Positions 1,552 through 18,058 of a stretch of DNA of 64,000 bases are shown here, in pieces. The DNA lies in NCBI RefSeq assembly GCF_002260845.1, contig NZ_BEDT01000004.1, positions 124,001 through 188,000 on the forward strand, read 5' to 3'. The stretch's first letter is position 1, and the number at the start of each line of letters is the position of its first letter. Under the pieces are notes generated by a model that saw nothing but the letters and a program-made list of their open reading frames with translations, made no database searches and was not told the DNA's origin. The position numbers and the translations under genes are program-made. This DNA is from Pseudolactococcus reticulitermitis. Lineage in GTDB: Bacteria > Bacillota > Bacilli > Lactobacillales > Streptococcaceae.

Positions 1552-1577
1552 GCACACAACAAGTTTAACGTGTGATT

Positions 1578-1607
1578 TTGTCCTCAGCGCTTGGTTTTTG
1601 AGGACAA
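1578..1607 (+). terminator. Intergenic hairpin after giant WxL gene
   Basis: TTGTCCTCA pairs with TGAGGACAA in a 9-bp stem, followed by CGGACTTATTTTA. A similar stem with the same CGGACTTATT tail lies after the second giant WxL gene (12126-12153), so it is part of the duplicated unit. With no solid T-run it may act as a weak terminator or processing site that lowers expression of the DUF916 gene. Confidence 0.5.
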
Positions 1608-1671
1608 CGGACTTATTTTATTGAAGAAGTGTTAAAAAGTATGCAATAGTAATGTAAAGGGAGAAGGGAAT

Positions 1672-2823: not shown

Positions 2824-2842
2824 TCTCATTTTAAGCTAAGAA

Positions 2843-2875
2843 AAGTAAGGCAGATCGACTTGTCTTGCTTTTTTT
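2843..2875 (+). terminator. Rho-independent terminator after DUF916 copy 1
   Basis: AAGTAAGGCA pairs over 10 bp (two G-U pairs) with TGTCTTGCTT around an 8-base loop and runs into TTTTT. Confidence 0.85.
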
Positions 2876-3090
2876 GCATAGTTAGCAACATCAATAAATC
2901 ATTTAAAAATAATTATTTGGATAATTTTGATAGAAAGTGCTGAACAATTTGTGAAATAAAAAAGTGGTTATTTTAATCGTAAAAAACGACTAAAATCAAA
3001 TAATAAAGCGTTTGTGACATCTCTATTTAAAATTAAGAAAACATGTCAGAGTTATATTTACGGAAGTCGTTTCTTTTTTTTTATTTAATA

Positions 3091-3119
3091 TTGAAAAAAT
3101 ACAAGAATTGTGGTATTAT
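3091..3119 (+). promoter_or_regulatory. Sigma-A promoter of the WxL operon
   Basis: TTGAAA (3091-3096), 17-bp spacer, TATTAT (3114-3119). It lies in a very AT-rich stretch between the terminator at 2843 and the first gene of the WxL set, about 250 bp before the LPRTG gene, so it would give a long leader. Confidence 0.6.
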
Positions 3120-3372
3120 TTGTGTGTAGATATTATATTTAACTTAGTTTATAAACAAAACGTTAAATTAAGTTGCGTACAAAATTAAAAAACCAAAACT
3201 GCCGTAGAATTTGACAAGGAGGGGGAGCCATGTTCAATTATTTAGCAGAAAAGCCAGATAAACAGCCCTGTTTTTATGACGACTCATAACCCTGATTTTC
3301 TAGGAAATCAAGTGATTTGTGTTTCATAAAAAATTGTCGATAGTCATCGCAAATTAAAAAAAGGGGGAAAGA
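3120..3372 (+). other. Long structured leader of the WxL operon
   Basis: This 250-base stretch lies between the promoter and the LPRTG gene. It holds an AT-rich hairpin at about 3141-3174 (AACTTAGTTTA pairing with TAAATTAAGTT, one G-U), a 20-codon small reading frame at 3230, and a second hairpin just after that frame (TGATTT/AAATCA, about 3293-3310). It ends in the ribosome site AAAGGGGGAAAG before ATG 3373. The layout resembles a leader-peptide or attenuation arrangement, but no T-run terminator was found, so the role is unknown. Confidence 0.45.
3230..3289 (+). CDS. Possible 19-residue leader peptide
   Basis: An ATG preceded by a very strong ribosome site (AAGGAGGGGGAGCC) opens a 19-residue frame, MFNYLAEKPDKQPCFYDDS, ending in TAA. 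There is no signal peptide or membrane helix. The ribosome site is as strong as those of the real genes downstream, which is the main reason to list it. It sits in the leader of the WxL operon with a hairpin right after its stop codon. It could be a regulatory leader peptide or a chance frame. Confidence 0.4.
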   Translation: MFNYLAEKPDKQPCFYDDS

Positions 3373-3693
3373 ATGAAAAAGCATACTTTACTGTTACTTC
3401 TTGTGCTTTTGCTCATCCCCGTGTCGACTGCGCGTGCAGATGATACGGCTTATCAAACGCAAGGAGAGGTTGGCTTTACAGGGACTTGGGAAACACCGAA
3501 ACCCACAGAAAATCCAGAAGTGCCACTACCAGGAACTTGGCAAGCAGCCGCAACGCCTACCAGTCTTCCGAGAACGGGAGACAGCGTGACGGCTTCAATG
3601 GCGACGAGTGCTATTGGCATCTTGATTTTACTTCTCATCACTGTGTATAACAAGTTGAGAAGAAAGGGGGTGATGACAAGGGGGGAATCATGA
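3373..3693 (+). CDS. Small LPxTG-anchored protein (CscD-like)
   Basis: 106 residues. The signal peptide is MKKHTLLLLLVLLLIPVSTARAD. A short mature region holds two near-repeats of G-T-W (TGTWETPKP and PGTWQAAATP). The C-terminal sortase signal is LPRTGDS, a hydrophobic helix, then KLRRKG. Sortase A would join it covalently to peptidoglycan. Small LPxTG proteins are regular members of csc/WxL clusters, where they are thought to help display the WxL complex. The start has the ribosome site AAAGGGGGAAAG. It is the first full gene after the operon promoter, with four WxL genes following on the same strand. Confidence 0.85.
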   Translation: MKKHTLLLLLVLLLIPVSTARADDTAYQTQGEVGFTGTWETPKPTENPEVPLPGTWQAAATPTSLPRTGDSVTASMATSAIGILILLLITVYNKLRRKGVMTRGES

Positions 3694-3755
3694 TAATGTT
3701 TGGAAACGTCATTTGAAAAATTTTTTAGATGGCGCGAATTCGAAAGGGGCAAACC

Positions 3756-4601
3756 ATGAAAAAAATAACGCTAAAATCTTCAGCACTACTCGCAACGCTT
3801 TTAATCACAGGTTCAGTACTAGCACCCGCTGCAAGTGCGACAACGATTGGTGGCGATGCCACAACCAGTGCCAACCTGACGTTACAAGCAGGGACAGGAC
3901 CCAATACGCCATTGGATCCAGATGATCCAGATAAGGAAGTTGATCCAATAGACGATCCGGTATTAGGGACGCCTGGTAACATCACTGTTGACTATGGGTC
4001 AACCTTCCAATTTGGGACCCAATTCATCTCAACACAAGAAGAAACCTACTATGCTCATCCAGACCTAGTTGTGGACAAACTAACGTCAACTACGAAAATT
4101 GTGCCACTTTATTCTCAGGTCACTGACCAATCAGGAGATTTAGCAGGTTGGACGTTGACTTTGACGCAGAAAGACGACTTGCATTTGGCAACGGGTACTT
4201 CTACAGACCCAGGCTATGCCCTGACAGGTGCGCAAATCAAATTCACAGGTGGGCAAATTGTCGGTGGGAATAACCTCACAACAGGTGCACCAACTAGTGT
4301 TGCTGCTTCTGGGACACTGACACCAGGTGTGGCAACTCAATTAGTAGCCGCAGGTGCCAACGAAGGTGCAGGGACTTGGCTCTATAAATTTGGTGGGGTG
4401 ACTGACTATGATGCGTCTTCAGTAGATACCGCAACACCAACAGACAAATCAAAAATTGCCAGCCAATCACCGATTAGCCTAACTGTACCATCTGGTTTAA
4501 TCCAAAAAGCAGCGTCTTATTCAACAGAACTCTACTGGAGTCTCCAAGCTGTACCGGGTAACACTTGGACGGGGAACTCAGGCGCCATCACTAAACCGTA
4601 A
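3756..4601 (+). CDS. WxL-domain surface protein 1
   Basis: 281 residues from ATG 3756, chosen because GAAAGGGG sits correctly before it and the signal peptide (MKKITLKSSALLATLLITG, cleavage near ASA-TT) begins there; an ATG at 3729 only adds a short charged tail. After an Asp/Pro-rich linker (about residues 48-65) comes a WxL domain. It begins ITVDYGSTFQFG and includes the first motif GWTLTLTQKD and the second LYWSLQAVPGN. These domains attach proteins to peptidoglycan without covalent bonds. It is the first of four consecutive WxL paralogues. Ligand unknown. Confidence 0.92.
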   Translation: MKKITLKSSALLATLLITGSVLAPAASATTIGGDATTSANLTLQAGTGPNTPLDPDDPDKEVDPIDDPVLGTPGNITVDYGSTFQFGTQFISTQEETYYAHPDLVVDKLTSTTKIVPLYSQVTDQSGDLAGWTLTLTQKDDLHLATGTSTDPGYALTGAQIKFTGGQIVGGNNLTTGAPTSVAASGTLTPGVATQLVAAGANEGAGTWLYKFGGVTDYDASSVDTATPTDKSKIASQSPISLTVPSGLIQKAASYSTELYWSLQAVPGNTWTGNSGAITKP

Positions 4602-4634
4602 GGTAAAAAAGGATATTCATAAGGGGAGGAAACT

Positions 4635-5426
4635 ATGGATAAACGATTATTAAAATCAGCCTCAGTCTTGACAGCCTGTCTCATTGCGGCACCAATCTTT
4701 TCGAGCTCTGCAAACGCTTTAAGTGTAGGCGGCGACACGACATCTAATGGCTATGTTAATTTTGAAGAAGGCAATAATGCCCAAATTACACCAGTCGATC
4801 CTTTGGCACCGACGATTCCCGTAGGGCCAACGAATCCAGATGGGACAACGCCATTGCCAGGAACAGGTGGTGCGTTATCAATTGACTTTGCGTCAAGTTT
4901 GAGCTTTGGGAAACAACAGATTTCATCTAATGATGCGACCTACTATGCACATGCGCAGTGGATTAGCAAAGATAAAGATGGCAATTCGGTTGACATCACG
5001 CGTCCTAACTATGTCCAAGTCAGCGATACCCGCGGAACTTGGGGAGGCTGGACGTTGACAGTCGCTGAAGCGGATCAATTTAAAAATGCAGCTGGTGACG
5101 AATTGGCAGGCGCAGAACTCGCCTTTGACAACGGCTACACAGACGGCACAACAACCGCAACACCAGGCTTTGTTAAGACGGGTAACTTTGTCATCGGCAC
5201 TGCAGAAGTTAAACTCTTAGGTGCAGGTGTCAATGAAGGGATGGGAACTTGGGTCTACGGTCTCGGAGGGAATGCTGATTACGTTGAAAATGGTGGTGCC
5301 CATTTAGGCAATGATGATGTCTCTACCGCATCGCCAATTACGCTTAAAGTCGTTGCTGGTACCAATAAAGCAACAGCTTACACGACAGAACTCCAGTGGA
5401 AATTAACCAATACACCAGGGAATTAA
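4635..5426 (+). CDS. WxL-domain surface protein 2
   Basis: 263 residues. Signal peptide about residues 1-28 (cleavage near ANA-LS), a Pro-rich linker (VDPLAPTIPVGPTNPDG), then the WxL domain opening with LSIDFASSLSFG. The two WxL motifs are GGWTLTVAEAD and ELQWKLTNTPGN at the very C-terminus. The ribosome site AAGGGGAGG lies before ATG 4635, only 33 bp after the previous gene, so the genes are co-transcribed. It shares the same plan as its three neighbours but only the domain core is conserved, pointing to old duplications. Confidence 0.92.
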   Translation: MDKRLLKSASVLTACLIAAPIFSSSANALSVGGDTTSNGYVNFEEGNNAQITPVDPLAPTIPVGPTNPDGTTPLPGTGGALSIDFASSLSFGKQQISSNDATYYAHAQWISKDKDGNSVDITRPNYVQVSDTRGTWGGWTLTVAEADQFKNAAGDELAGAELAFDNGYTDGTTTATPGFVKTGNFVIGTAEVKLLGAGVNEGMGTWVYGLGGNADYVENGGAHLGNDDVSTASPITLKVVAGTNKATAYTTELQWKLTNTPGN

Positions 5427-5463
5427 GTCCTTGCTTAATCAATTGCGGACATCAGTTCGCGAC

Positions 5464-5497
5464 TGACCCCGCTTGGACGTAACGCAAGCGGAGGTCA
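5464..5497 (+). other. Strong intercistronic hairpin in WxL operon
   Basis: TGACC and CCGCTTG pair with CAAGCGG and GGTCA (12 bp with one bulged A). There is no T-run after it. A second perfect hairpin, GATTTCAT-CAA-ATGAAATC (about 5506-5524), stands directly before the ribosome site of the next gene. These may stabilise or cut the mRNA so that WxL proteins are made in different amounts. Confidence 0.55.
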
Positions 5498-5541
5498 AGT
5501 TTCAAGATTTCATCAAATGAAATCGCAGAAAGGAGGGTGCT

Positions 5542-6300
5542 GTGAAAAAAACAACTTTGTTAAGTGTGCCACTCATCCTGATTTCATTGGGTTTAGCTGT
5601 TAAAGCTGACGCGACAACCACGCAATCCTCTACATCACAAGGCATTGTAGGCTTTAGCACAGGTGGTGGCACGCAGTCACCGGTAGACCCAAATCTACCA
5701 GATCCAACACTTCCCGTTACCCCACAAAATCCGGATGGGTCAACACCTAATCCGGGTGGAGATGGCCCGCTGACCATTGATTTTGCCTCAAGCTTTGATT
5801 TTGGAACGCATGATATTTCAAATCAAGATCAAACCTATGTCGCAAAAGCGCAACGTTACTTTAATTCGGGAGATTTAACGCCCAATTATGTGCAAGTAAC
5901 AGATAGACGCGGAACATTTTCGGGTTGGGAGTTAAAAGTGATGGAACTGACCCAATTTACACAAATTTCGACAGGACCTCAGAAGTATCGAGAGCTTAAA
6001 GGGTCGACAATTTCTTTAAAAAATCCAATACCAGCCTCCCTGAATGGCGATAATGCGCCGAGTGCGCAAGCCATCCAGAGCTTGATTCCAGGTGTAGAAA
6101 CACAGATTGCACTAGCGGTTTCAGGTAAGGGAGCAGGCACTTGGGTTGTTCGTTGGGGAAGTCAAGAGAATATCACGCAAGAGGGGTTGAATCCAGAGGT
6201 TACATTATTTGTGCCAGGAGCAACGCCGAAAGATGCGACAGCTTATCAAACCACATTAAATTGGATACTATCTGATTTACCAAAAAATACACCAGCTTAA
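5542..6300 (+). CDS. WxL-domain surface protein 3
   Basis: 252 residues from GTG 5542, preceded by AAGGAGGGTGCT. Signal peptide about residues 1-24 (cleavage near VKA-DA). A linker rich in Pro and Asp (PVDPNLPDPTLPVTPQNPDG) is followed by the WxL domain, LTIDFASSFDFGTH. The motifs are GWELKVMELTQF and LNWILSDLPKN. The use of GTG and the upstream hairpins may lower translation compared with the neighbours. Role: wall-bound surface protein of a WxL complex, ligand unknown. Confidence 0.91.
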   Translation: MKKTTLLSVPLILISLGLAVKADATTTQSSTSQGIVGFSTGGGTQSPVDPNLPDPTLPVTPQNPDGSTPNPGGDGPLTIDFASSFDFGTHDISNQDQTYVAKAQRYFNSGDLTPNYVQVTDRRGTFSGWELKVMELTQFTQISTGPQKYRELKGSTISLKNPIPASLNGDNAPSAQAIQSLIPGVETQIALAVSGKGAGTWVVRWGSQENITQEGLNPEVTLFVPGATPKDATAYQTTLNWILSDLPKNTPA

Positions 6301-6348
6301 TGTCACGTGTAGATTGAAATAAGATGTATCATAAGAGAGGGAAATATT

Positions 6349-7104
6349 ATGTCAAAATCATCAATCAAATATTTATCAGTAGCAACACTGGCTTTATTGG
6401 CGGCATCTATCGCGCCACTAGGTGCTAGTGCGCTCACGACACAAAACTATAACTCAAAAGGTACGACAACATTTACCGCAGGTACGGATACGACAGGGCC
6501 AGTAGACCCACAGGATCCAGACACACCAGTCACACCGACACCACCACCAGGGGTAACACCTGGTGGACCAACTATGCCAGATAATGGCTTGACCATTGTT
6601 TATGCGTCAAGTTTTGATTTTGGTAGTCATGCGGTAAGTAACCAAGCCGAAGTTTATAATGCGGCAGCTCAAAAATTGGACGATGGTACGACACGTACTA
6701 ACTATATCCAAGTCGCAGATAACCGAGGCACTTTCTCAGGTTGGAATGTCAAAGTGACCATGACTGACTTTACGACGACAAACGCAGCGTTGATTGCCAA
6801 TGGTCATGGCACACTGACAGGAGCTAAAGTGACGCTTGGTGATGCCGAAATTCAAGGTGATGGCACAGCAAATCCAGCAGACAGATTTGCGGCAACAACT
6901 ACCTTGACGCCAGGCGTACAATCAGCAACGATTCTTGGTGCAACATCAGGACATGGTTCAGGGAATAACCTGCTTGATTTTGGTGGCAAAGCTGGTGCAA
7001 CGAAAGATTCAGCAGTCAAATTGTCAGTTCCTGCAGGTGTCTCTGGGGCTGCGACTTATACAGCAGACTTTACTTGGATTCTTGATGATACACCAGCTAA
7101 TTAA
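6349..7104 (+). CDS. WxL-domain surface protein 4
   Basis: 251 residues. Signal peptide to about residue 29 (GASA-LT), a Pro/Thr linker (DTPVTPTPPPG) and a WxL domain starting LTIVYASSFDFGSH. The first motif is GWNVKVTMTDF, with Val where the consensus has Leu; the second is FTWILDDTPAN at the end. The ribosome site GAGAGGG lies 10 bases before ATG. It is 45 bp upstream of the giant WxL gene and presumably on the same transcript. Confidence 0.91.
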   Translation: MSKSSIKYLSVATLALLAASIAPLGASALTTQNYNSKGTTTFTAGTDTTGPVDPQDPDTPVTPTPPPGVTPGGPTMPDNGLTIVYASSFDFGSHAVSNQAEVYNAAAQKLDDGTTRTNYIQVADNRGTFSGWNVKVTMTDFTTTNAALIANGHGTLTGAKVTLGDAEIQGDGTANPADRFAATTTLTPGVQSATILGATSGHGSGNNLLDFGGKAGATKDSAVKLSVPAGVSGAATYTADFTWILDDTPAN

Positions 7105-7148
7105 GATGACTCATTTATTTAGTGGTGAGAAACAAGTAAGGGGATACT

Positions 7149-10100
7149 ATGCAAAGAAAAAACAAATTTAAACTTGTGACTTTTGCAATGTTGCTGGCAT
7201 TGTTACCGTCTATGAACTTTGGGGCAGTTTCTCAAGCTTTTAGTAGCGGAAATGTTAAGCAAGCATCTCTTGGTAAACTATTTTCGCCTCAAGAAGTGGG
7301 AGCTACAACGACCAGTAAAGGGACATTGATTAAGAGCATTGTGCCGACGGGTAGTCTCTTTAATGGTAAAACAGCTTCACAGCCTAGCCGTACACCACTG
7401 CCCCAAAGAGCAGTGGTTGATGCGACAGCACCTTCAGCTTTTGGCTGGCAGCAGAGCATCAGCAGCTTAGCCTTACCAAGCAATCAGGTAACGGCAATAC
7501 AAGATGGGACAGTTTTGGGGAGCTATCCTGCTACTGATGCTGGCGTGCAACAGGCCTTATATGCGATGTATAGCGCAACAGGTGCTGCAACATCGGATTT
7601 TGTCCTTTACTTTGGCGGCAACACAACTTTAAGTAATGCGACAGCCAAAACGCCTGTTACAGCACCAACTGCTAGCAACATGACTTTTAGCACGCTCGCA
7701 GGTCATGCCAAAAGTCTGACCTGGGTCTCTAATCCCGCAGATAATTTGGCAAGTTCTAACACAGGGCAAGCGTCAGGTACCAACTACACGGTTACTCTAC
7801 CCACCAGCACCAATACTAATACCTACTTCGGCGTGCCAACTGTTTTTCGGAACGTGACGGTTGCAGCTGGTTCGAGTAGTATTTATGCGCAAGGAAATGC
7901 TTTTGCGACGACCAATGGGTCGTGGATTACGGGTGCGGTCAATATTTATGGTGGGACGAACACGACTGATATTACTGGCGATACCAATCTCTATATTGGG
8001 GCAACTGGTAATACAGCGGGTTGGAGTATCTATGGCGGTAATGCCTCAGGCGGTACAATCTCAGGAACTACCCATGTCACTTTGACACAAGTCTCATCTA
8101 GGGTTGATGTGATTACAGGTGGTAACGCTGCAGGTGGCACGATTTCTGGGGATACCAATCTTGATATTAATGGTGCGATTGCAGCCCAAGTGACCAGCAT
8201 TTATGGTGGTGGCATCGGGACATCAGCATCTCCTGTTACAGTCAATGGGACGGTGACAACTTATGTGAGTTCAACAAATGGCAGCGCACGTTATCAGCTT
8301 TATCAAGGTGGCACGTGCTATGGTCAGATTGCGGGTTCAATTTATAATACCTTAACAGGTCTTGGGGGTTGGACGAGTAGTTCAAGCAACATTAATGGTG
8401 CTCAAGGGACATTTTCAAATTACAATGGTGGCTCATTCCAAGGGAATATCGGGAAAAAGAATGCGGGAAATGTTATCTCTAACAGTTATGATACCTCAGC
8501 TTTTACAACCGGTCAGGCACTCTTTACAGGGGGGAATGGCGGCACGATACAGACCTATGGCGCTGCATCAACTCCCAATACTGCAGCGCAAGGAGTGACT
8601 TATGCGAATATTACCAATTATATCAAATCAGCCTTTACGACTGGGACAGCAGGTGCTGTTTATGGTGTGGTTGGTGGCAACGGTCATGACTCCTTAAAAA
8701 TTTCGCCAGCTCAGTGGGGCTTAGGCAGCGAGACTGGTTTGGATGCGGGTGTTGGGATGACACAGGCTAAGGCTTACGCCCAGATGCCAGCTAGTACAGT
8801 TATCGCCAATGCCCAAGCGATTACTAGCAATGCGATTTATGGTGACATCTATACCTGGATGCAATCTGGCGCCATGTCGACAACTGCCGGTGGTGGTTAT
8901 GTTGACTGGACGGGCTTTGCTTATGGTGCGAGTTCAAACGGTTATCTCCAAGGTCAATCTGTTCTTGAAGCGGGCACCTCTAATTCAGATAATTCTGTTG
9001 GTGGTGCGGGCGTTGTTTACTGTACAGCGGGAGGACCAGTGGCAACGCTGGCTGCAAAGGGGAAAGTCGCTTATGGTAAAACAGATACTGCTGCAGCTAA
9101 TAACACTGCTTGGGATCTCTGGGGCGGTGGTGGGACGGTCTATACTTATCGGCAAGCCTTCTTACAAAACGGTGATTGTTATTTAATTCACAATAACGAC
9201 ATTGCGCGTTGGACTTACGGTGGTCAATCAAATGGTAGCCAAGTCGGGGATTCTTATAGCATTCTTAATGGGGGGATTGTTGATACCCTAGAGGGTGGTG
9301 GTTATACTGGCACAACCAGATGGGGCTCGACAACCTCTCAAGTCAATATGGGTCAAGTCAACTGGTTCTTATCAGGCGGTTCATGGGGGGACTTGTATAA
9401 TACGGGTAATGCCACTGTCAATGTTTACAATGGTTTCGTCAATGCCATTGCCGGTGGTAACTATGGTCAAGCTGGTAATGAAACGATTGCTGGCGATTCG
9501 ACCGTCAATGTTTACGGGGGAGATTTCTCAGGAACGCCAAGGACGGGTACGAAACAGTTATGTGGCGGTCCCTTCTATAATGGGAGTTCTTCTATCCTAG
9601 GGAATACGACCCTTAATCTTGATTTAACGGGTCCGACAGGCTCGACTTTCCAACTGCCTTCGGGCACCTATCTATCAGGCGGCGCAGGTTATAATAATAC
9701 CGCTACGCATGTCGGTTCAGGTAACTCGAACAACATTAACGTTACTATCGCTGCCAATGCGAACTCTGGTAACGTCTTGAATGGGGCTATCATCTATGGA
9801 GATGGTCAGTCCAATGGTGCTAATAATACCTATACCAATGTTGGGACGATTAATATGACAATCAATGCGGATGGTAATACAGTAGGGTCTATCTATGCGA
9901 CCAACTATACTGCCATGCCAGCGGCAGGTCAACTCTATAATGCCAATATTGAGGTTGGAGATGGGACGACGATTTCAGGTACGGTGACCGCGGGAGGTAG
10001 CAGTGATAATCTGACAGATGCGATTGCTGCAGCCAATACCAAACAGTCCATCGTGACTTTAGGGGATGACACCTCTCACAATCCGATTACGATTAAAGGC

Positions 10101-12098
10101 TCTTTGATTAATTTCAATAGTGCAGAAATCACTTCAGGGACAACAGTCAATGTCGCAGGTGCCTTTAAAAATGGGGGAGGTGCAACGGGAGGCAACCACG
10201 CAGCAACCTATTCGAAACATGGCACGATTCAGCTAGATGAAAATGCGACACTCGCTGTGACGACCACATCATCACTGATTTCTGGTAGCCAACTCATCGT
10301 CTATCCAAATGCGTCACTTTCGACGCCTTATGTCCAAACATCTGGCTTAATCAATCTGTCAGATTTAGATATGACCACCCATAATGGCAATCTTTTCTGG
10401 GAACCAACAGGCACACCACCAACAAATATCACCACTACCTATGGTGGTGCTTACTGGGGCAGTCAAAAAGGTTTCCCAGTGCTGACCTTTAACGGTGGAG
10501 ATAGTAACACGAAATCTGGGGCAGCTAATATCACACCGGGTAATTTCTCAGGTGTTGATACCACGCGTAACTATGCTTTTCTAGGTGACTATACGATGAA
10601 TTCACTGACATCACCTAGTAATCCAACATGGATTGGTTACGTTGTTCCCGGTCAAATCCGCGTTTACAACACGACAAGCCCGACGAATTCTGGCTTCTGG
10701 CAACACCATCTGAAGTCCAATATCACAACAGGAACGCCTGTGGCAGGTCAAGCCATGCAAGCCTGGGCTTCCGTTGGCGCAGATACAGATGCAAGTACGA
10801 TGCAGGTCATGTATGTGATGGGGTATGCTGATAGTACAGTAAATCCTTTTAGCTTTACAAGTCAAGTACCTGCCTATATCAAATCACGTTCAGCTTCAGG
10901 CTTTGACGGTCGTGTCCTGAACGATTATCCAGCTGTCAATCCGAACTTTGATATCAATGATGCGACTAAAACAGGTGCGACACGTACCTTTGCAACAGCA
11001 GATTACTTCGTTGGCAATCAACAAAACGGTTCAAATGACCAAGCAACCTTTGGTAGCTACATTATCCAAAATGTCGTCACTGATAATGTTACTTCACTAA
11101 GTGCTGGTAATTATATCTTACCAACTACTGATGCGGCATCGCTTGATTTGACGCAGTTGCAACAAATTGCTGATTTGAAAGGTACAGGTGTCATGTCTGA
11201 TATCAGTGTGACAAATGGTATCGTTTCAGCTATCAATAACGCAGGAACAACGGTTCAAAATCCAATCTCAGTAGCAAGCAATGGGGCAGACAAATCTTAT
11301 GCTCAGCTTCCAATGACTTGGACTTTGGGAACAAGCACGGCTAAAACCAATCTTGTCGTTGTACCACAAGCTGCGGTTATCTCAGCCGATCATCAGACAG
11401 CTGTTAATGCTTATGATGCAGGTATGACAGGTGATGATGCCCATGCCTTGGTAGACCAAGCAGATTTTGATGCTAACTGGACCTATGCGTTAGGCTTTAA
11501 GGCAGACGGCACAGTAGCTGCACCAAATATTTCTGCGCCAGTCAATTTGATTAGTACGTTACAAACGATTGTAGCTGGGGATCCGCTGATTGATGTCAAT
11601 GATAATATTGATCCAGTCACTTATACTTATAACGGTGTATCGAAAGATATTACGCTCAATATCAGTTTTGGTTTCATTGATATGGCGACACCGACAGCTT
11701 ATGATTTTGGTACTTTAGATGTTAGCCCGAAACCTTTGCTTGCTTGGGCACAAACCCCTTCAAGTGATGTGACGGTTACCGATACACGGACAGGAAGTGG
11801 TCTTAAACCTTGGCAAGTTACGGTCAAACAGTCAATAGACTTGCAAGGCATCTCAAATGGCAACAATTTGAGTCCGTATCTTCTCTTCAAGGAAGGTGGA
11901 AGCAGTCAACAAATCACAAGTGCAGCATTGCAAATTTTTGCTAATACAGCACCAACAACAGGTAGCTTCAATTTAAATCAAAATTGGAATGCTAGCACTG
12001 GACAAGGGATTCAATTGAATATTCCTGTTCAGAGTCAAATTAAAGGCGTTTACCAAGGTGAATTAACTTGGACGCTCAATAATGTTCCAACACCTTAG
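7149..12098 (+). CDS. Giant beta-helix-like WxL surface protein
   Basis: 1649 residues. Signal peptide about 1-31 (cleavage near VSQA-FS). Residues roughly 230-960 are made of Gly/Asn/Thr/Ser-rich irregular repeats such as IYGGTNTTDITGDTNL, ITGGNAAGGTISGDTNL and STVNVYGG, typical of a right-handed parallel beta-helix as in pectate-lyase-like or autotransporter-type adhesins. The last 510 residues match the protein cut off at base 1. The C-terminus has a WxL domain with motifs KPWQVTVKQ (Val in place of Leu) and LTWTLNNVPTP. A long rigid stalk that is wall-bound by WxL fits an adhesin or polysaccharide-binding fibre. No catalytic motif is recognised. The DUF916 partner follows after 125 bp. 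Confidence 0.9.
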   Translation: MQRKNKFKLVTFAMLLALLPSMNFGAVSQAFSSGNVKQASLGKLFSPQEVGATTTSKGTLIKSIVPTGSLFNGKTASQPSRTPLPQRAVVDATAPSAFGWQQSISSLALPSNQVTAIQDGTVLGSYPATDAGVQQALYAMYSATGAATSDFVLYFGGNTTLSNATAKTPVTAPTASNMTFSTLAGHAKSLTWVSNPADNLASSNTGQASGTNYTVTLPTSTNTNTYFGVPTVFRNVTVAAGSSSIYAQGNAFATTNGSWITGAVNIYGGTNTTDITGDTNLYIGATGNTAGWSIYGGNASGGTISGTTHVTLTQVSSRVDVITGGNAAGGTISGDTNLDINGAIAAQVTSIYGGGIGTSASPVTVNGTVTTYVSSTNGSARYQLYQGGTCYGQIAGSIYNTLTGLGGWTSSSSNINGAQGTFSNYNGGSFQGNIGKKNAGNVISNSYDTSAFTTGQALFTGGNGGTIQTYGAASTPNTAAQGVTYANITNYIKSAFTTGTAGAVYGVVGGNGHDSLKISPAQWGLGSETGLDAGVGMTQAKAYAQMPASTVIANAQAITSNAIYGDIYTWMQSGAMSTTAGGGYVDWTGFAYGASSNGYLQGQSVLEAGTSNSDNSVGGAGVVYCTAGGPVATLAAKGKVAYGKTDTAAANNTAWDLWGGGGTVYTYRQAFLQNGDCYLIHNNDIARWTYGGQSNGSQVGDSYSILNGGIVDTLEGGGYTGTTRWGSTTSQVNMGQVNWFLSGGSWGDLYNTGNATVNVYNGFVNAIAGGNYGQAGNETIAGDSTVNVYGGDFSGTPRTGTKQLCGGPFYNGSSSILGNTTLNLDLTGPTGSTFQLPSGTYLSGGAGYNNTATHVGSGNSNNINVTIAANANSGNVLNGAIIYGDGQSNGANNTYTNVGTINMTINADGNTVGSIYATNYTAMPAAGQLYNANIEVGDGTTISGTVTAGGSSDNLTDAIAAANTKQSIVTLGDDTSHNPITIKGSLINFNSAEITSGTTVNVAGAFKNGGGATGGNHAATYSKHGTIQLDENATLAVTTTSSLISGSQLIVYPNASLSTPYVQTSGLINLSDLDMTTHNGNLFWEPTGTPPTNITTTYGGAYWGSQKGFPVLTFNGGDSNTKSGAANITPGNFSGVDTTRNYAFLGDYTMNSLTSPSNPTWIGYVVPGQIRVYNTTSPTNSGFWQHHLKSNITTGTPVAGQAMQAWASVGADTDASTMQVMYVMGYADSTVNPFSFTSQVPAYIKSRSASGFDGRVLNDYPAVNPNFDINDATKTGATRTFATADYFVGNQQNGSNDQATFGSYIIQNVVTDNVTSLSAGNYILPTTDAASLDLTQLQQIADLKGTGVMSDISVTNGIVSAINNAGTTVQNPISVASNGADKSYAQLPMTWTLGTSTAKTNLVVVPQAAVISADHQTAVNAYDAGMTGDDAHALVDQADFDANWTYALGFKADGTVAAPNISAPVNLISTLQTIVAGDPLIDVNDNIDPVTYTYNGVSKDITLNISFGFIDMATPTAYDFGTLDVSPKPLLAWAQTPSSDVTVTDTRTGSGLKPWQVTVKQSIDLQGISNGNNLSPYLLFKEGGSSQQITSAALQIFANTAPTTGSFNLNQNWNASTGQGIQLNIPVQSQIKGVYQGELTWTLNNVPTP

Positions 12099-12125
12099 TA
12101 TCTATTAATTACTTGATGGATACTG

Positions 12126-12153
12126 TGTCCTAAACGGTTTCTCGTTTGGGGCA
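12126..12153 (+). other. Hairpin after giant WxL gene, copy 2
   Basis: TGTCCTAAACG pairs with CGTTTGGGGCA over 11 bp (two G-U pairs), followed by CCGGACTTATT. It is the counterpart of the hairpin at 1578-1607 with the same tail; the stem is conserved although the loop bases differ, which suggests selection for the structure. Confidence 0.5.
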
Positions 12154-12223
12154 CCGGACTTATTAGTTATCTATATTGGATAACATTTAAACAAAAAATA
12201 GCAGGTATTTAGGAAAAGAGATA

Positions 12224-13375
12224 ATGAAAAAATTAAAAAAAGTTTTAGTATTAATTGGATTAATCGTGACCTTTGGTGGTATGAGTCAAGCAGTTTCTGC
12301 TAACGAGTTCAATTTTTCAGTAACACCAGTGCGTCCAGAAAATCAAATCGGGGACAGTGGTTATTTCAACTTACAAATGGCACCGGGTCAGTCGCAAGTT
12401 TTGACGGTAACCCTGACCAATTCGACAGAAAAAACAGTCGTAGTTGAGGAATCAATTGCTAGCGCAACGACGAATATTAACGGTGTGATTGAGTATTCGC
12501 CCAACAAAATTAAGGCAGATAAGAGTTTAAAATATAACATCTCGGATTATGCCAAAATGCCAGCGGAAATTACACTGACCCCTAAATCAACACAGCAGGT
12601 TAAAGTCGAAGTAACGATGCCTAACGAACCTTTTTCTGGTGTGATAGCGGGTGGTATTACCTTTAAGGAAAAAGGTTCAGATGAAGCCAGCTCAAAATCT
12701 AAAGGGATTAGTATTCAAAATAAATATGCCTACGTTGTCGCTTTGCTGATGCAGCAAGATCCAACACCTGTTGCGCCAGATTTAAAATTGATGAGCGTTG
12801 TGCCGGGACAGGTCAACTATCGCAATGTCGTCAATGCTAATCTTCAAAATCCAAACGCTGGCTACCTCAATCAGATGTACGTGCAAGCTACGGTAAAAGG
12901 TTTGAGTAATACGAAATTGTCTTATACCGTTGACAAAGAAATGATGCAAATGGCGCCGAACACGAATTTTGACTATCCGATTAGTATCGGGGAAGGCAAG
13001 CGGATAGAGGCTGGTAAGTATCAATTAGAAATGACGGTTTATGGTCAAAAAAGTGATAACGGGAAGTACACTTATAAAGATGCGCAAGGAAAAGAGCAGA
13101 AATTTGATTATCAGTGGCAATTCACGAAAGAGTTCACGATTTCTGGTCAAACAGCTAAGAAATTAAATGCCAAGGATGTGACGATAAAACCAGAACCGTG
13201 GTATAAAAACTGGCTAATCTGGGCAGGTATAATTTTGGTGTTATTAGCCTTGTTCTTCCTCTTCTTCCTTTTATGGAAACGCCGTAAAGATGACGAAGAA
13301 GATGAGATTGAAGGAACTGAGACGGAAACCCTTCAATCACAAATTGAAGCGATTAAAGAGCAGTTGAAAGATTAA
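12224..13375 (+). CDS. DUF916/DUF3324 WxL-partner protein, membrane-anchored (copy 2)
   Basis: 383 residues. Signal peptide about 1-26, DUF916-like domain opening NEFNFSVTPVRPENQIG, DUF3324-like domain, a transmembrane helix about 327-350 and a cytoplasmic tail. It is the paralogue of 1672-2823, but this tail (DEIEGTETETLQSQIEAIKEQLKD) is acidic and helix-forming whereas copy 1 ends in a Lys-rich tail. The ribosome site is GGAAAAGAG. By family, it holds WxL proteins at the wall and contacts host or matrix ligands. It closes the surface-protein cluster. The different tails suggest different cytoplasmic contacts, an inference only. Confidence 0.93.
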   Translation: MKKLKKVLVLIGLIVTFGGMSQAVSANEFNFSVTPVRPENQIGDSGYFNLQMAPGQSQVLTVTLTNSTEKTVVVEESIASATTNINGVIEYSPNKIKADKSLKYNISDYAKMPAEITLTPKSTQQVKVEVTMPNEPFSGVIAGGITFKEKGSDEASSKSKGISIQNKYAYVVALLMQQDPTPVAPDLKLMSVVPGQVNYRNVVNANLQNPNAGYLNQMYVQATVKGLSNTKLSYTVDKEMMQMAPNTNFDYPISIGEGKRIEAGKYQLEMTVYGQKSDNGKYTYKDAQGKEQKFDYQWQFTKEFTISGQTAKKLNAKDVTIKPEPWYKNWLIWAGIILVLLALFFLFFLLWKRRKDDEEDEIEGTETETLQSQIEAIKEQLKD

Positions 13376-13680
13376 GCGGAAAAACTTCTTAATTAATTCC
13401 CTGAAAATGGAAAAAATAAAGATAGTGCGTCTGGGTGCTTGCAACTAAAGGTTTCTTGAAGGTGTCACACAAAATGACAAAGAAAATAGATATTTATTTC
13501 TGTTATAATATTTATAATATTAGGCATATCCTCATTAAAAGAATAGATTGGCTAACGAAGAGGGGGAAGCAGAGTACTTTTCACTCATAAAAAGTGTCTG
13601 TTTTGCATAAACTGACATACGGTAAATCAGTGTAATAGTTTGGCTTTATAATGCAATTTATCAGACAGAGATAAGGAGAT
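13376..13680 (+). other. Leader region of the actin-like operon
   Basis: This is a 305-base non-coding stretch. It contains an extended -10 element (TG-T-TATAAT, 13501-13509) without a good -35, a second TATAAT at 13647-13652, an SD-like AGAGGGGGAAGC (about 13560) not followed by a start codon, and a small hairpin ACTTTT/AAAAGT (about 13578-13597). No clear terminator of the DUF916 gene was found, so read-through from the WxL cluster is possible. Confidence 0.45.
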
Positions 13681-14496
13681 ATGGTGGAGAAAAAAGGATT
13701 TTTTCAAAGAAAAGCAACATTTAAGACTTCTGAGAGTGGGACACCGCTGATGACCCAACAAATTGAGGAAATTGGTCGACAGGTGCTTACTTTAAGGCAA
13801 AAATTAAAGGTAGCTGAACAAGAAAAAGAAAATATCAAATTAGAGTTTGATGCGCTAAAACAAGGGAAGTTAAAAGAAAGCCAAGCCGAACTGGCACAAA
13901 AAACGGCGCAGTTTGACACAATGTTAGTCGCACAACGGGATAAATCTAAGCAACAGCTATCAGCTTTAGAAAAAGAACTTGCCACTAAGACTGAGCAATT
14001 AAGCACAGTTGAAGCAGCGCTAGAAGTGGAAAAAGAGAAGGTCACAAGCCTGTCACAGACATTAGAGACAAGTTCAAGCACTAAAGATGCCGAAATCAAG
14101 CAATTGACCAAAGAAAAGCTAGAAATCAAATCGCAAGTTTCAGAAGTCCTCTTAGAGTTACAGGAACATTTCGATTATAAAACAGCTTTATTGGAAACAG
14201 AGCGTGAGTTGCTAGCGCAAGAAAAAGTAAAAGCTGATGCGGATAGACTTCAAAAACTTGAGGCCTGTGAAGTTTTCACACGGCAGGCACAAGATGAAGC
14301 AGCCGAGATGATTGAGACTGCCAAAGCAACGGTGTCACAAATGATGCAGCAAGCACAGGCAGAAATCGCCGAAAAAGAAGCGCAGTCTAAGGAAGAACTC
14401 AATCGACTGAAAACACGCATAGACTACTATTCAAGTCAGATTAATGATGCGGCGCAAACGATTGAAGTCTTACTCAGCAGCGTCAGCCATTTGTAA
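13681..14496 (+). CDS. Coiled-coil protein, DivIVA-like C-terminus
   Basis: 271 residues, not recognised as a named family. Residues about 25-265 are almost unbroken heptad-type coiled coil rich in Glu, Lys, Gln and Ala. The segment about 195-245 (FTRQAQDEAAEMIETAKATV..QAQAEIAEKEAQ) resembles the C-terminal helices of DivIVA/GpsB-like proteins, but the N-terminal lipid-binding domain of DivIVA is missing; the N-terminus is a short basic stretch, MVEKKGFFQRKATF. ATG 13681 has AAGGAG directly upstream. It is the first gene of a four-gene unit with the actin-like ATPase 68 bp downstream, so it may be a filament-bundling or positioning partner. No signal peptide, so probably cytoplasmic. Confidence 0.8.
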   Translation: MVEKKGFFQRKATFKTSESGTPLMTQQIEEIGRQVLTLRQKLKVAEQEKENIKLEFDALKQGKLKESQAELAQKTAQFDTMLVAQRDKSKQQLSALEKELATKTEQLSTVEAALEVEKEKVTSLSQTLETSSSTKDAEIKQLTKEKLEIKSQVSEVLLELQEHFDYKTALLETERELLAQEKVKADADRLQKLEACEVFTRQAQDEAAEMIETAKATVSQMMQQAQAEIAEKEAQSKEELNRLKTRIDYYSSQINDAAQTIEVLLSSVSHL

Positions 14497-14564
14497 AGTG
14501 ATGACAGGCTAACGTAAACACAGGCTACTGAAATCAGCTAAAAGTTTAAAACAAGGAGAAAAAG

Positions 14565-15803
14565 ATGAATATTTTTGCCATAGATTTGGGCAACAAACGC
14601 GTTAAGATGAAAAGTGATCGAGGTGAGTATGTCTACCCAGCCTCATATTTGGTGGCTGAAACTGTTACCCGAGGTGTTCTAGGTGGCTGGCAGCTGAAAG
14701 GAAACCAGGTCTACGCAGTTGATAAGGAAGACAACCGTTTTGTCTGGGGGACTGAGCTAGATGCCTATCATTTATCAGAAAAAATGATTGATACTTACGG
14801 TCGTTCTGGTCGGATTGAGCAGAAAAAAGCTCAGCGTATTTTGGAATTTGCCTTGGGGCGTTTGGCGCTTGATTATAAAGAATCACGGACGAAACCTTTG
14901 GTTGTCAACTTAGTCTTGGGTGTGCCGATCACTGACATGCACCAAGACAGTCATACCATTCAGACTTTGAAAGAGCTGATGATTGGCCGCCATTATATCC
15001 AAGTTGATGGGGAGGAGCTGATTGTTGAGATTCCTTCTGAAGACTACCTCCTTGTTGTGCCCCAGTACATGGGGACAGCCTTTGAGTTGGCCTATGATGA
15101 AGCGATGCACCCCATTGATGCCTTCGCAAATGGGCGAATGGGCATCTTAGACATCGGTGGTGGTACGATTTTAGTCAATACGTCAAATCATCTGAACCCA
15201 GCACCGATGGGGGCTGAGCGTTTTGAAGGCGTTCAGACTTTGATTAAACGCATCGCTGAAAAAATCAACTCAACCAAACTCTTCACGATTGAAAGATTGC
15301 TCCGAGAAGGCAGTACCAGTGGCAGCTATCTCTATCAACCAAGCCGCAATACAGCGGATTCAAGAGACATTTCGAGTCTGGTCAAAAAAGCCATTGAAGA
15401 CTATACACGCTTTACGGTCGCGCCCCTGATCACAGAAAATTTTCCTGATATTGAAGATGCGGACTTCATCGTTATGACGGGTGGTGGCGCCAATATTATT
15501 GACAAAACAGCCTTGCTTGACGAAATCGGTCAAGCCTACTTTGATCGTCTCGTCTTCATTTCTTCATCTGAGTTGGCCAATGTGCGTGGCTTCTATAAAT
15601 ATGCTGTTTTGAGTTGGAGTGGGTCTAGAGAAATGCCAGCATCAGAAAAGTGTGACACCCCCCTGACTGCGCCGATTATTCCCATGATGACAGAAGAGAC
15701 GCCAACGCCAGTAGCAAAAGAGACACCAGATTATTCTGACCAGTTGCAACAAGTTCAGAACAATTTGAAGCGACTAAGAGATGAAATTGATCAAGAGACT
15801 TAA
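14565..15803 (+). CDS. ParM/actin-like ATPase
   Basis: 412 residues. It has the nucleotide-binding signatures of the actin/Hsp70 superfamily in order: phosphate-1 IDLGNKRVKM (residues 5-14), phosphate-2 LDIGGGTILV (about 195-204) and adenosine motif VMTGGGANII (about 303-312). The closest recognisable relatives are the ParM/StbA/Alp plasmid-segregation actins, which polymerise with ATP. It is about 90 residues longer than ParM; the extra C-terminal part is a Pro/Thr linker followed by a coiled coil (about 388-410). No parR-like DNA-binding gene and no parC-like repeat array lie next to it; the neighbours are coiled-coil and membrane proteins. A cytoskeletal rather than DNA-partition role is therefore inferred. 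The ribosome site is AAGGAG. Stop overlaps the next start (TAATG). Confidence 0.85.
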   Translation: MNIFAIDLGNKRVKMKSDRGEYVYPASYLVAETVTRGVLGGWQLKGNQVYAVDKEDNRFVWGTELDAYHLSEKMIDTYGRSGRIEQKKAQRILEFALGRLALDYKESRTKPLVVNLVLGVPITDMHQDSHTIQTLKELMIGRHYIQVDGEELIVEIPSEDYLLVVPQYMGTAFELAYDEAMHPIDAFANGRMGILDIGGGTILVNTSNHLNPAPMGAERFEGVQTLIKRIAEKINSTKLFTIERLLREGSTSGSYLYQPSRNTADSRDISSLVKKAIEDYTRFTVAPLITENFPDIEDADFIVMTGGGANIIDKTALLDEIGQAYFDRLVFISSSELANVRGFYKYAVLSWSGSREMPASEKCDTPLTAPIIPMMTEETPTPVAKETPDYSDQLQQVQNNLKRLRDEIDQET

Positions 15804-16432
15804 TGGCTATGGATAATTTAAATGCGACCTCATCAAGTCATCGTGATCGGGACCTTGTCAAAAGCGAACGTGATAAAATGTTGTCAGCGATTGCAAGCCT
15901 CACCCATTTACTGGGGAGCCATCCGGAACATCAAAAAAATGATGACTACAGGGTGCTTGAACGTGACTTGAGCCAAATCAGAGACCAGTATGTCCAGTCA
16001 GCAGATGATTGGATTCAGGCTACTGATCATTTAGAGCAAGTAGAACAAGATAATAGGCAACTCAAGGAAGCCAATAAGGTGCTGGCCAATGACGTATCGG
16101 CTGGAACACAAGTTTTTGAACAAAATCAGCAAGAGATTGCGACAAGTCTGCAACAGTTGGCGGTAGAAAAAGAAGGCTTATATCAGACTTTGAACACCAT
16201 CAAAGCAGCTATCGCCACACAACAAGCTAAGAATGACGCACTTGAACAAGAGCTGAATGCTTTAAAACAAGCCCAACCGTGTCCGCAAGTTCAAGATGAG
16301 GCAGAGCAGTTACAGGCTTCGCTCCTGAGCGCCCAAGCAGAGATTGCGGATTTATTCATTCATTTGAAAACATCGGCACCGAAAAAATCGTTGGACACAG
16401 TCGCAACAGTCGTCGTAACGAAAAACAGCTAG
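15803..16432 (+). CDS. Coiled-coil protein of actin-like operon
   Basis: 209 residues, family not recognised. The start overlaps the stop of the actin-like gene by one base (TAATG), meaning translational coupling; an alternative ATG lies at 15809. Residues about 20-185 are predicted coiled coil with Gln/Glu-rich heptads, broken near 156 by QPCPQ. No signal peptide or membrane helix. Coupled synthesis with the ATPase suggests a direct partner, such as a filament cross-linker or an adaptor to the membrane protein encoded next. Function unknown. Confidence 0.75.
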   Translation: MAMDNLNATSSSHRDRDLVKSERDKMLSAIASLTHLLGSHPEHQKNDDYRVLERDLSQIRDQYVQSADDWIQATDHLEQVEQDNRQLKEANKVLANDVSAGTQVFEQNQQEIATSLQQLAVEKEGLYQTLNTIKAAIATQQAKNDALEQELNALKQAQPCPQVQDEAEQLQASLLSAQAEIADLFIHLKTSAPKKSLDTVATVVVTKNS

Positions 16433-16447
16433 AATAGGAGGAGTAGC

Positions 16448-17428
16448 GTGACACATATCAAAAAGCTGGCCAACATGCTCAACTCCAGAGCTTTCCTCTA
16501 CTGGCTACTCATTATTGGCTTAGGGATTAAGGCGCTGACGATTTACGTTGCGGCGCAACAGATGTTTTACCTTGAGCATATCTTACAGGGCTTTCTGTTG
16601 ACCGTTCTCATGCCTGTGTTATTAATCGCTGTGCTGATGGGCTTTGCCTCCTTCATTCGGGATAAGCAGTTCTACCAGAGCACTTTAATTGGTATTGCTT
16701 GTTTTGGGAGTAGTTTGTTGTTTCTTGGCTTACTTTACTATCGCGTTGAGAAACATTTTGTCTTTTTGCCAGACAAAATCCCCACAGTTAGTAATCTCAG
16801 TACGCCAAATGGCAATTTATTTTACCAGATTCGAATTGGGGATTTGATTTTTGTCTCTGATTTTATCATCATCTTGCTCATTCTGCTTAGTGCCGTCATT
16901 TTGAATCAACAGACAGGTGCAGTGACTGAAAGCTCAGAAACATTGGTAGAGGGTCAAAAGATATTATCTGCCATAGGTCTTTCTTTAGAGCAGCTAAAGG
17001 AAAAATCAGCTGTCCAAACAAGGCGTCTTGCACAAGTCAAAATTAAAAATGAGCAGTTGAAAGCACAACAAGCGACTTTATCACAGCAAAAATCTGACCT
17101 TCAAGACAAGTGTCGCAATAGTCAGCCTGAAAGTCAAAAAGAGATTGCCTGTTGTCAAACTGAAAATGCCAATCTTCTGGTCTCATTGAAGAAGTTTGAA
17201 GCGCTAAAAAGTCAACTTGAAGTAGCCTATCAGCAAAAAGTGCTCGCCTTACAAGAGCTGAGTGCGCAGCAAGCTGGTCAGGCAGAAGAAATAGCTAACG
17301 CAGCTCCACCACAGCAATCGGGAGCAGAAACGCCCACCGAACAAGAAGATAAGGTGCAAAAAGCCAAGCAGATAGCGCAACAAATTTATGAAGAGATGCG
17401 GGCGCGTTCGCAGGTGTGCCAGTCTTAG
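16448..17428 (+). CDS. Membrane protein: LtaS-like transmembrane domain fused to coiled coil
   Basis: 326 residues from GTG 16448, behind AGGAGGAG. Four to five hydrophobic helices lie at about 16-36, 44-68, 78-97 and 130-152. Between the last two, LYYRVEKHFVFLPDKIPTV followed by NLFYQIRIGDLIF resembles the region around the membrane domain of lipoteichoic acid synthase (LtaS), where YYR, a short loop and a terminal D-x-x-x-F-x-D helix are typical. The sulfatase-like enzyme domain that should follow is absent; in its place is about 150 residues of coiled coil (from residue 160) ending in an Ala/Gln/Glu-rich tail. It could tie the actin-like filament to the membrane or to LTA machinery. Resemblance to LtaS is my reading and unconfirmed. 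Confidence 0.72.
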   Translation: MTHIKKLANMLNSRAFLYWLLIIGLGIKALTIYVAAQQMFYLEHILQGFLLTVLMPVLLIAVLMGFASFIRDKQFYQSTLIGIACFGSSLLFLGLLYYRVEKHFVFLPDKIPTVSNLSTPNGNLFYQIRIGDLIFVSDFIIILLILLSAVILNQQTGAVTESSETLVEGQKILSAIGLSLEQLKEKSAVQTRRLAQVKIKNEQLKAQQATLSQQKSDLQDKCRNSQPESQKEIACCQTENANLLVSLKKFEALKSQLEVAYQQKVLALQELSAQQAGQAEEIANAAPPQQSGAETPTEQEDKVQKAKQIAQQIYEEMRARSQVCQS

Positions 17429-17467: not shown

Positions 17468-17511
17468 AAAAAACGCCTCAGACACACGCTTGTGGACTGA
17501 GGCGTTTTTTT
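17468..17511. terminator. Bidirectional terminator
   Basis: AAAAACGCCTCAG pairs with CTGAGGCGTTTTT around a 15-base loop, with A-run and T-run on both sides. It closes the actin-like operon on the plus strand and the luxS-niaX unit on the minus strand. Confidence 0.93.
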
Positions 17512-18058
17512 AGTGATTAAAAATATCAAATTTGTAAACTCTATTGATTGTTTTGGCGATAAACATGGCGATATTGAAGTCAATCAGTGAGTGGATAAAG
17601 CCACCGATTCCCAAAATCAACAGCAGGGAGACGAGATTTCGACCATCTAGATGGCTAAAACCAGTTGTCAACAGAATATAGACAATGGCGACCTCAGCCA
17701 AGGTATGGATTAAAGCAATGACAACATTGAAAATCTGGAATTTGATACCTTCCGTGTAGTCGCGGTGTTTCCAGAGGAAAAGTGAGCCAATAAGGGCGAA
17801 AATAACATGGGTCGCAGCACGGAAGGTAATCTCAATCGGTAAACCTGAAATCAAGAAACCAAGCGTCGAGCCAAGTGCGACGATGACCGCAACAACTGGT
17901 GAAATCAGCATCCCAATCATAATCGGTACGTGACTAGCAAGCGTGAAGCTGGCAGGCGGAATCACGATTTTGGGCATGACTTGCGGAATGAGAATGGCGA
18001 GCGCTGTCAAAAGCGCAGCAGTTGTCAGCATTGATAAGCGTTTGCGTGTCTGATTCAT
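17510..18058 (-). CDS. niaX: ECF transporter S component, NiaX-like
   Basis: 182 residues, about six hydrophobic helices. The stretch VIPPASFTLASHVPIMIGM and the following AVIVALGSTLGFLISGLPI match the pattern of the NiaX niacin-type S components of energy-coupling-factor transporters. S components bind the vitamin and need the shared EcfA1-EcfA2-EcfT module, which is encoded at 30905-33364. It starts 5 bp after the luxS stop, with its ribosome site (AAAGGTAA) inside the end of luxS, so the two are one operon. The niacin assignment is by family likeness; location next to luxS could mean a different substrate. Confidence 0.65.
   Translation of the reverse strand: MNQTRKRLSMLTTAALLTALAILIPQVMPKIVIPPASFTLASHVPIMIGMLISPVVAVIVALGSTLGFLISGLPIEITFRAATHVIFALIGSLFLWKHRDYTEGIKFQIFNVVIALIHTLAEVAIVYILLTTGFSHLDGRNLVSLLLILGIGGFIHSLIDFNIAMFIAKTINRVYKFDIFNH

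Follow-up and report, generated by a model that had tools for sequence, protein, structure and literature searches.

Four consecutive genes, here named A to D, were analysed in a window of Pseudolactococcus reticulitermitis DNA, that is, the whole stretch of 64,000 nt at positions 124,001-188,000 of NZ_BEDT01000004.1. Genomes carry G-codes and loci L-codes in the following, and G000 is the genome of the window. The genes A-B-C-D probably form an accessory chromosomal cytoskeleton module that was derived from a plasmid ParM motor and re-wired from DNA to the membrane; we put the probability of this at roughly 60%. Gene B encodes an actin-like ATPase of the ParM/Alp7A type that has an additional tail and helix at its C-terminus. 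A and C are predicted coiled coils by heptad periodicity, and D joins an LtaS-like membrane domain of four transmembrane (TM) segments, TM1-TM4, to a long helical tail, without TM5 and without the sulfatase domain. All four open reading frames (ORFs) that had been listed in a preliminary description, made from the sequence only, were confirmed. The operon is flanked by a cluster of WxL surface-protein genes upstream and a terminator-like repeat downstream.

B matched Pfam ALP_N and Alp7A_like_C above the cut-off. It contains the three nucleotide signatures claimed for it before, DLGN, DIGGGT and TGGGAN, which we take to be the phosphate-1, phosphate-2 and adenosine motifs. The proposed closeness to plasmid ParM/Alp actins was borne out by profile, sequence and fold: the best match in the PDB was pSK41 ParM (3js6), both by sequence (3.2e-12) and by fold, and ParM ranked above MamK in the fold searches. 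The PHROG family 'partition protein' was matched at 2.1e-26. The NCBIfam ParM equivalog was hit with 1.7e-29 and thereby below its cut-off (103 of 417 bits), as was likewise the case for three plasmid ParMs. PF06723 (MreB_Mbl) was absent from the Pfam matches of B at E ≤ 1, and the FcmB model NF052678 gave 24.3 bits against a cut-off of 300, with 42-54 bits for the three plasmid ParMs. B matched 346 plasmid records, all with less than 60% identity and the best 40 of the 346 with 30-34%. A phage origin was considered and rejected: no match was obtained in 50,697 phage records, and a scan of IMG/VR yielded three loci, namely, the contig of the termite-gut metagenome-assembled genome G069 itself and two at 27-28% identity. 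In a tree of 16 rows, seven close B rows formed one group (support 100/99) apart from nine other ParM rows; three of the seven are incomplete because B is broken and one more is truncated at the end of a contig, and several of the ParM rows are long-branched. The C-terminal coiled coil that had been ascribed to the ATPase was not recovered, as the AlphaFold 2 (AF2) model has a single helix of 21 residues there, after a low-confidence linker. By eye, tails like this one were seen in the clade rows and not in the distant ParM tails printed.

Beside plasmid parM, the downstream slot is held by parR. Nineteen distant ParM loci were examined, 18 of them with a readable ParM ORF. A same-strand ORF of at least 50 amino acids (aa) lay within 60 bp 3' of ParM at 17 of these 18 loci, with lengths between 59 and 283 aa (16 of 59-194 aa, 10 of 87-107 aa), although the set includes loci that are nearly identical to each other. 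As a control, 30 window ORFs of 250 aa or more were put through this test; 10 had such a downstream ORF, and in no case was it 59-194 aa long. Three annotated plasmids have a gene of 89-103 residues 2-4 bp after parM. In the window, this slot is held by the coiled coil C with its 209 residues, and the stop codon of B shares one base with the start of C (TAATG), in agreement with the translational coupling described earlier. The absence of a parR-type gene and of a centromere-like array was also upheld. Five ParR or putative ParR proteins were compared with the window and with A and C, and none was similar (best E 0.13); profile scans of A and C gave weak coiled-coil matches only and no ParR. 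No tandem array of the parC type was found between 13000 and 18100, where 20 of 23 direct-repeat families were shown, each with two or three scattered copies. A very diverged ParR could still be present.

The heptad periodicity of A (z 5.2) and of C was reached in 0 of 1000 shuffles each, compared with 62 of 1000 for the tail of D and, as controls, 806 of 1000 for B and 522 of 1000 for the membrane part of D. By hydropathy, neither A nor C has a TM segment. They were rejected as homologues of each other (hhalign probability 7). The two coiled-coil partners of the preliminary description were thus retained, while the DivIVA-like end proposed for A was not: no Pfam DivIVA match to A was obtained at E ≤ 1, with HMMER filters that drop many weak matches. 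The N-terminus of A is basic-aromatic (KKGFFQRK), and K5, F7 and F8 are invariant in six of six aligned sequences. In C, ADLF near the end is kept in four of four. A defence system was considered and rejected, as B and D had no PADLOC match at E ≤ 0.1 and the similarities of A and C were weak and of coiled-coil type only.

D resembles LtaS, as had been suggested, in TM1-TM4, which are common to both. The alignment of D to four lactococcal LtaS frames covers TM1-TM4 and ends ahead of TM5 of LtaS; at TM4 it contains a stretch of the type GDxxFxxDF, with SD in one LtaS. Four hydrophobic segments were found in each of four D proteins. The NCBIfam LtaS model matched residues 17-179 of D with 5.6e-9, below its cut-off (35 of 970 bits), and reached no further than position 162 of the 626 in the model. 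The best blastp pairs of D and LtaS had E-values of 4.9e-4 (L017, 86 residues), 2.9e-5 (window), 1.0e-11 and 5.8e-14. The enzyme domain of LtaS sits outside the cell, after TM5; the tail of D, which is cut after TM4, should therefore stay inside, and the loop charges fit this topology only roughly. The AF2 model of D was of low confidence and too poor for a fold search. A sequence search of the PDB gave weak matches, mostly to coiled-coil entries, and D had no match among the plasmid records. LtaS matches were present in all 30 lactococcal genomes searched, none of them over the curated family cut-off. The earlier idea that the system places lipoteichoic acid synthesis found no support, since D is without the enzyme domain and the window genome has a long LtaS match elsewhere, apart from D. 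In G063, the LtaS gene (C1:395567-397560) was read as two overlapping pieces, which hints at assembly errors.

The operon has gaps of 68 bp between A and B and of 15 bp between C and D (Table 1). As suggested before, it is chromosomal: it lies on a contig of 229 kb, together with pgk and luxS, in a genome of 2.17 Mb in 20 contigs. The ratio of nonsynonymous to synonymous substitution (dN/dS, NG86 method) between the window and L017 was 0.22 for A, 0.054 for B, 0.29 for C and 0.23 for D, values that are rough because most pairs have reached, or almost reached, saturation at synonymous sites. All four genes therefore look selected.

Table 1. Features of the A-B-C-D operon and its surroundings (window coordinates)
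Feature	Coordinates	Strand	Details
Gene A	13681-14496	+	271 aa
Gene B	14565-15803	+	412 aa
Gene C	15803-16432	+	209 aa
Gene D	16448-17428	+	326 aa, GTG start
B, putative phosphate-1 motif DLGN	14583-14594	+	residues 7-10; sequence, alignment to 3js6
B, putative phosphate-2 motif DIGGGT	15150-15167	+	residues 196-201; sequence, alignments
B, putative adenosine motif TGGGAN	15477-15494	+	residues 305-310; sequence, alignments
B, predicted C-terminal helix	15735-15797	+	residues 391-411; AF2 model, after low-confidence linker
Four WxL-domain genes	3729-7104	+	3729-4601, 4635-5426, 5542-6300, 6349-7104; Pfam WxL 7.6e-45, 2.8e-52, 1.1e-57, 3.8e-49
Giant protein of WxL cluster, presumably secreted	7149-12098	+	1649 aa; class inferred from neighbours
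WxLIP gene directly upstream of A	12224-13375	+	Pfam WxLIP_PGBD 1.1e-39, WxLIP_HBD 1.2e-41
Extended -10-like element TGTTATAAT	13501-13509	+	possible own promoter of A, approx. 170 nt upstream of A
Perfect inverted repeat of 14 nt with runs of A and T, terminator-like	17468-17510	.	39 nt past D; common to converging gene 17510-18058

Among 146 related genomes, B was matched in eight: six with members of its close clade (G000, G008 of the same genus, which corresponds to Lactococcus, now Pseudolactococcus, chungangensis CAU 28, G059, G061 or L. hircilactis, G063 and G069) and two with distant ones (G017, G047). G063, for whose genus all 18 available genomes were searched, also carries a distant ParM besides its clade copies. 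The clade is present in only six of 30 lactococcal genomes. In wider samples, seven of 395 genomes of the order and 10 of 398 of the class had a match to B, with 3.9e-182 for the own genome and 4.1e-45 and 1.0e-35, respectively, for the best other one; the weaker matches were inspected in part. The survey of gene order that had been called for showed the whole order A-B-C-D in four genomes of two genera, namely, G000, G008, G063 (one site) and G059 (two near-identical copies). The two WxL-filament regions of G059 (L020 and L021) lie approx. 666 kb apart and are 99.7% identical over 7 kb including the interrupted B, which is given as recent duplication or conversion.

Other sites hold parts of the set. 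The second site of G063 (L022) has A and B without C and D, next to two GtfA/SdgA-like glycosyltransferase genes, MucBP proteins and a KxYKxGKxW protein. The adjacent glycosyltransferase pair (L022, 3168-6350) is related to SdgA/SdgB and GtfA, below the cut-offs of those models. The G061 locus combines A and B with two further membrane proteins of coiled-coil type, signal peptidase I and a KxYKxGKxW protein. In G069, B is truncated at the border of its contig, and the gene behind it codes for a coiled-coil-type protein with one TM segment. This 38-kb contig is listed as viral in IMG/VR and has a KxYKxGKxW gene at the opposite end from B, with phage-type genes (named by eye) between. Splitting of the locus by a phage could not be shown, as contig positions 1-3000 and 32000-37000 shared no 14-mers that would resemble att repeats.

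Losses were also visible. At the orthologous site of the sister genome G005, whose flanking genes are 93-95% identical, WxLIP, A, B, C and the first part of D are gone, and the giant gene passes after codon 72 into D, which continues from residue 81 (L073, C12:60000-78000, 12144-13077). G009 retains just the tail part of D, behind rpoC, a site at which all four genes stand in G008. The second WxL cluster of G063, near-identical over WxLIP, has 110 bp in the place where the first has 3.9 kb with four genes. B is interrupted by an in-frame stop in G061 and by frame breaks in the first copy of G063 and both copies of G059, while the window and L. chungangensis have no break in any of the four frames. 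Some of these breaks may be assembly errors, since the LtaS gene of G063 was read as broken as well. Taken together, the patchy carriage, the remnants in G005 and G009, the G063 cluster without the unit and the breaks in B mark A-B-C-D as accessory and lost more than once. This decaying distribution, like the surface-protein neighbourhood and the cyanobacterial precedent discussed below, had not been part of the preliminary description.

WxL (csc) clusters are defined by small WxL proteins beside a DUF916/DUF3324 (WxLIP) protein and by a large WxL protein whose WxL domain is C-terminal (PMC10599100, PMC9772566). The window has four WxL-domain genes and two WxLIP genes between 1672 and 13375, i.e. 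small WxL proteins beside DUF916/DUF3324 (WxLIP). The giant protein had no Pfam or NCBIfam match at E ≤ 1; its homologues, 79% identical, lie beside the same operon in L018 and L020. The gap between WxLIP and A is 305 bp in G000 and 80 bp in G063 and both G059 copies, where it contains a small inverted repeat. Surface-protein genes adjoin seven of the eight clade loci (window, L017, L018, L019, L020, L021 and L022), and in the eighth (G069) such a gene is approx. 36 kb away. KxYKxGKxW genes, of which there are only three in G008, six in G061 and four in G063, lie 6.2 kb, 1.6 kb and 4.2 kb (second site), respectively, from the cassette. The chance product of this proximity is 1.6e-6, a post hoc value, since the loci had been inspected before this category was picked. 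A signal peptidase I gene lies inside the G061 locus (L019, 7543-8085) between B and the KxYKxGKxW surface protein. From this neighbourhood, a role of A-B-C-D in the placement of surface proteins is put forward as a hypothesis. It is weakened by the fact that the cassette stands beside only four of 78 WxLIP genes in 30 lactococci. A link to SecA2 (accessory Sec) via KxYKxGKxW was rejected as not general, because G000 and G008 each had a single SecA match (857 bits in a frame of 869 aa and 862 bits in one of 873 aa, respectively). Two tandem WxL clusters precede the operon (window 1-13375 with L076), and it follows only the second. Three G063 loci of the surface or filament type have a gene for an HTH_3 regulator on their downstream side (L018 6174-7125, L022 2152-3120, L075 9884-10423), in two of them with an Spx-like gene beside it; these may be shared regulators.

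In the simplest account of the proposed membrane module, a plasmid ParM moved onto the chromosome, where its adaptor for DNA was lost and others, for the membrane and of coiled-coil type, were acquired. B would polymerise with ATP into filaments. C, which has taken the place of parR and is translationally coupled to B, may serve together with A as a coiled-coil adaptor for binding or bundling the filament, probably via the clade-specific C-terminal helix of B, and the basic-aromatic N-terminus of A could touch the membrane. D, with the LtaS membrane domain cut after TM4 and its tail predicted inside the cell, would tie the filament to the membrane. The tethered filament might organise a patch of the envelope, and the neighbours suggest the export or display of the large surface proteins encoded next to it as cargo. 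That the ParM motor became, in Gram-positive cocci, a membrane-tethered cytoskeleton that sets where giant surface adhesins are exported or anchored, with the LtaS membrane domain turned into an anchor by loss of its last TM helix, is a tentative and rather doubtful extension.

The nearest relatives of B outside its own clade are plasmid ParMs and the parR slot is occupied by C, so the unit might also be a plasmid-type segregation system integrated into the chromosome (cParM), with B as the DNA-pushing motor and either A or C as a diverged ParR that binds an unrecognised site. Chromosomal cParMRs of unknown role are reported for Desulfitobacterium and C. botulinum, mostly with ParR and some apparently without (PMC12270681); in a term search, the text of that paper had 'coiled' 0 times, 'membrane' once and lactococci 0 times. 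The missing ParR similarity argues against segregation, as do the lack of a repeat array and of a plasmid context, the membrane protein in the operon and the repeated loss, which make it unlikely. To our knowledge, ovococci are held to be without MreB, and B might substitute for it as a general shape or division scaffold unrelated to the adjacent surface genes. PF06723 matched only frames of 608-624 and 461-476 aa in 12 genomes, so no MreB is apparent; from their size, these are presumably DnaK and FtsA. FcmB, too, controls cell shape (PMC12645912). Such a scaffold can hardly be essential for the shape of the genus when the B clade is found in six of 30 lactococcal genomes and as remnants in two sisters, and we consider it no more probable than segregation. 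The least probable of the three alternatives is a decaying leftover of a mobile element without present function in most carriers. The deletion in G005, the D fragment in G009, the broken B in G061, one G063 copy and both G059 copies, and the G069 copy on a contig with phage-type genes would fit such decay. It conflicts with the four open and constrained frames in the window and L. chungangensis (B with the lowest dN/dS), and the LtaS of G063 cautions that some breaks may not be real.

Plasmid ParMRC, with pSK41 ParM as the nearest ATPase to B in the PDB searches, differs from the unit, which is chromosomal, has no parR or parC found and adds the C-terminal helix of B and a membrane partner. 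CorM/CorR of Anabaena presumably has a membrane cytoskeleton role. It shares 18% identity (PDB 9rmi), and its partner set is unlike that of B as far as the entry title tells. The closest precedent is FcmB of Nostoc, described in PMC12645912 as a chromosomal plasmid-type actin with membrane-bound filaments that is needed for rod shape. Both systems have a plasmid-partition actin on the chromosome and a partner gene directly downstream in the place of parR. The membrane-bound filament and a role other than segregation were shown for FcmB; they are only proposed for B. Unlike C, FcmC is annotated as ParR, and the lactococcal unit has two additional members, another coiled coil and a membrane protein derived from LtaS. 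FcmBC also belongs to another phylum and is lineage-wide there, in contrast to the patchy A-B-C-D. MamK filaments, which position magnetosomes with coiled-coil Mad proteins (PMC12748827), are alike in that an actin-like filament with coiled-coil partners places a membrane structure, as proposed here, and differ in their magnetosome role. The word actin was absent from the searchable text of the WxL papers PMC10599100 and PMC9772566, and neither a lactococcal actin of this kind nor a gene set with an LtaS membrane anchor and surface-protein neighbours came up in the searches of the open-access literature.

FcmBC, reported in 2025 from a cyanobacterium, is a plasmid actin re-used as a cell cytoskeleton (PMC12645912). 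The lactococcal case appears to be independent and has other partners; if true, it would mean that this conversion is repeatable and would show the DNA adaptor swapped for membrane adaptors. An accessory actin in ovococci would be a new handle on their envelope, and the surface-gene link, if causal, would make the placement of large surface proteins testable.

A may have a promoter of its own at TGTTATAAT. This candidate is weak, as it was seen in the sequence and is absent from the list of the scan.

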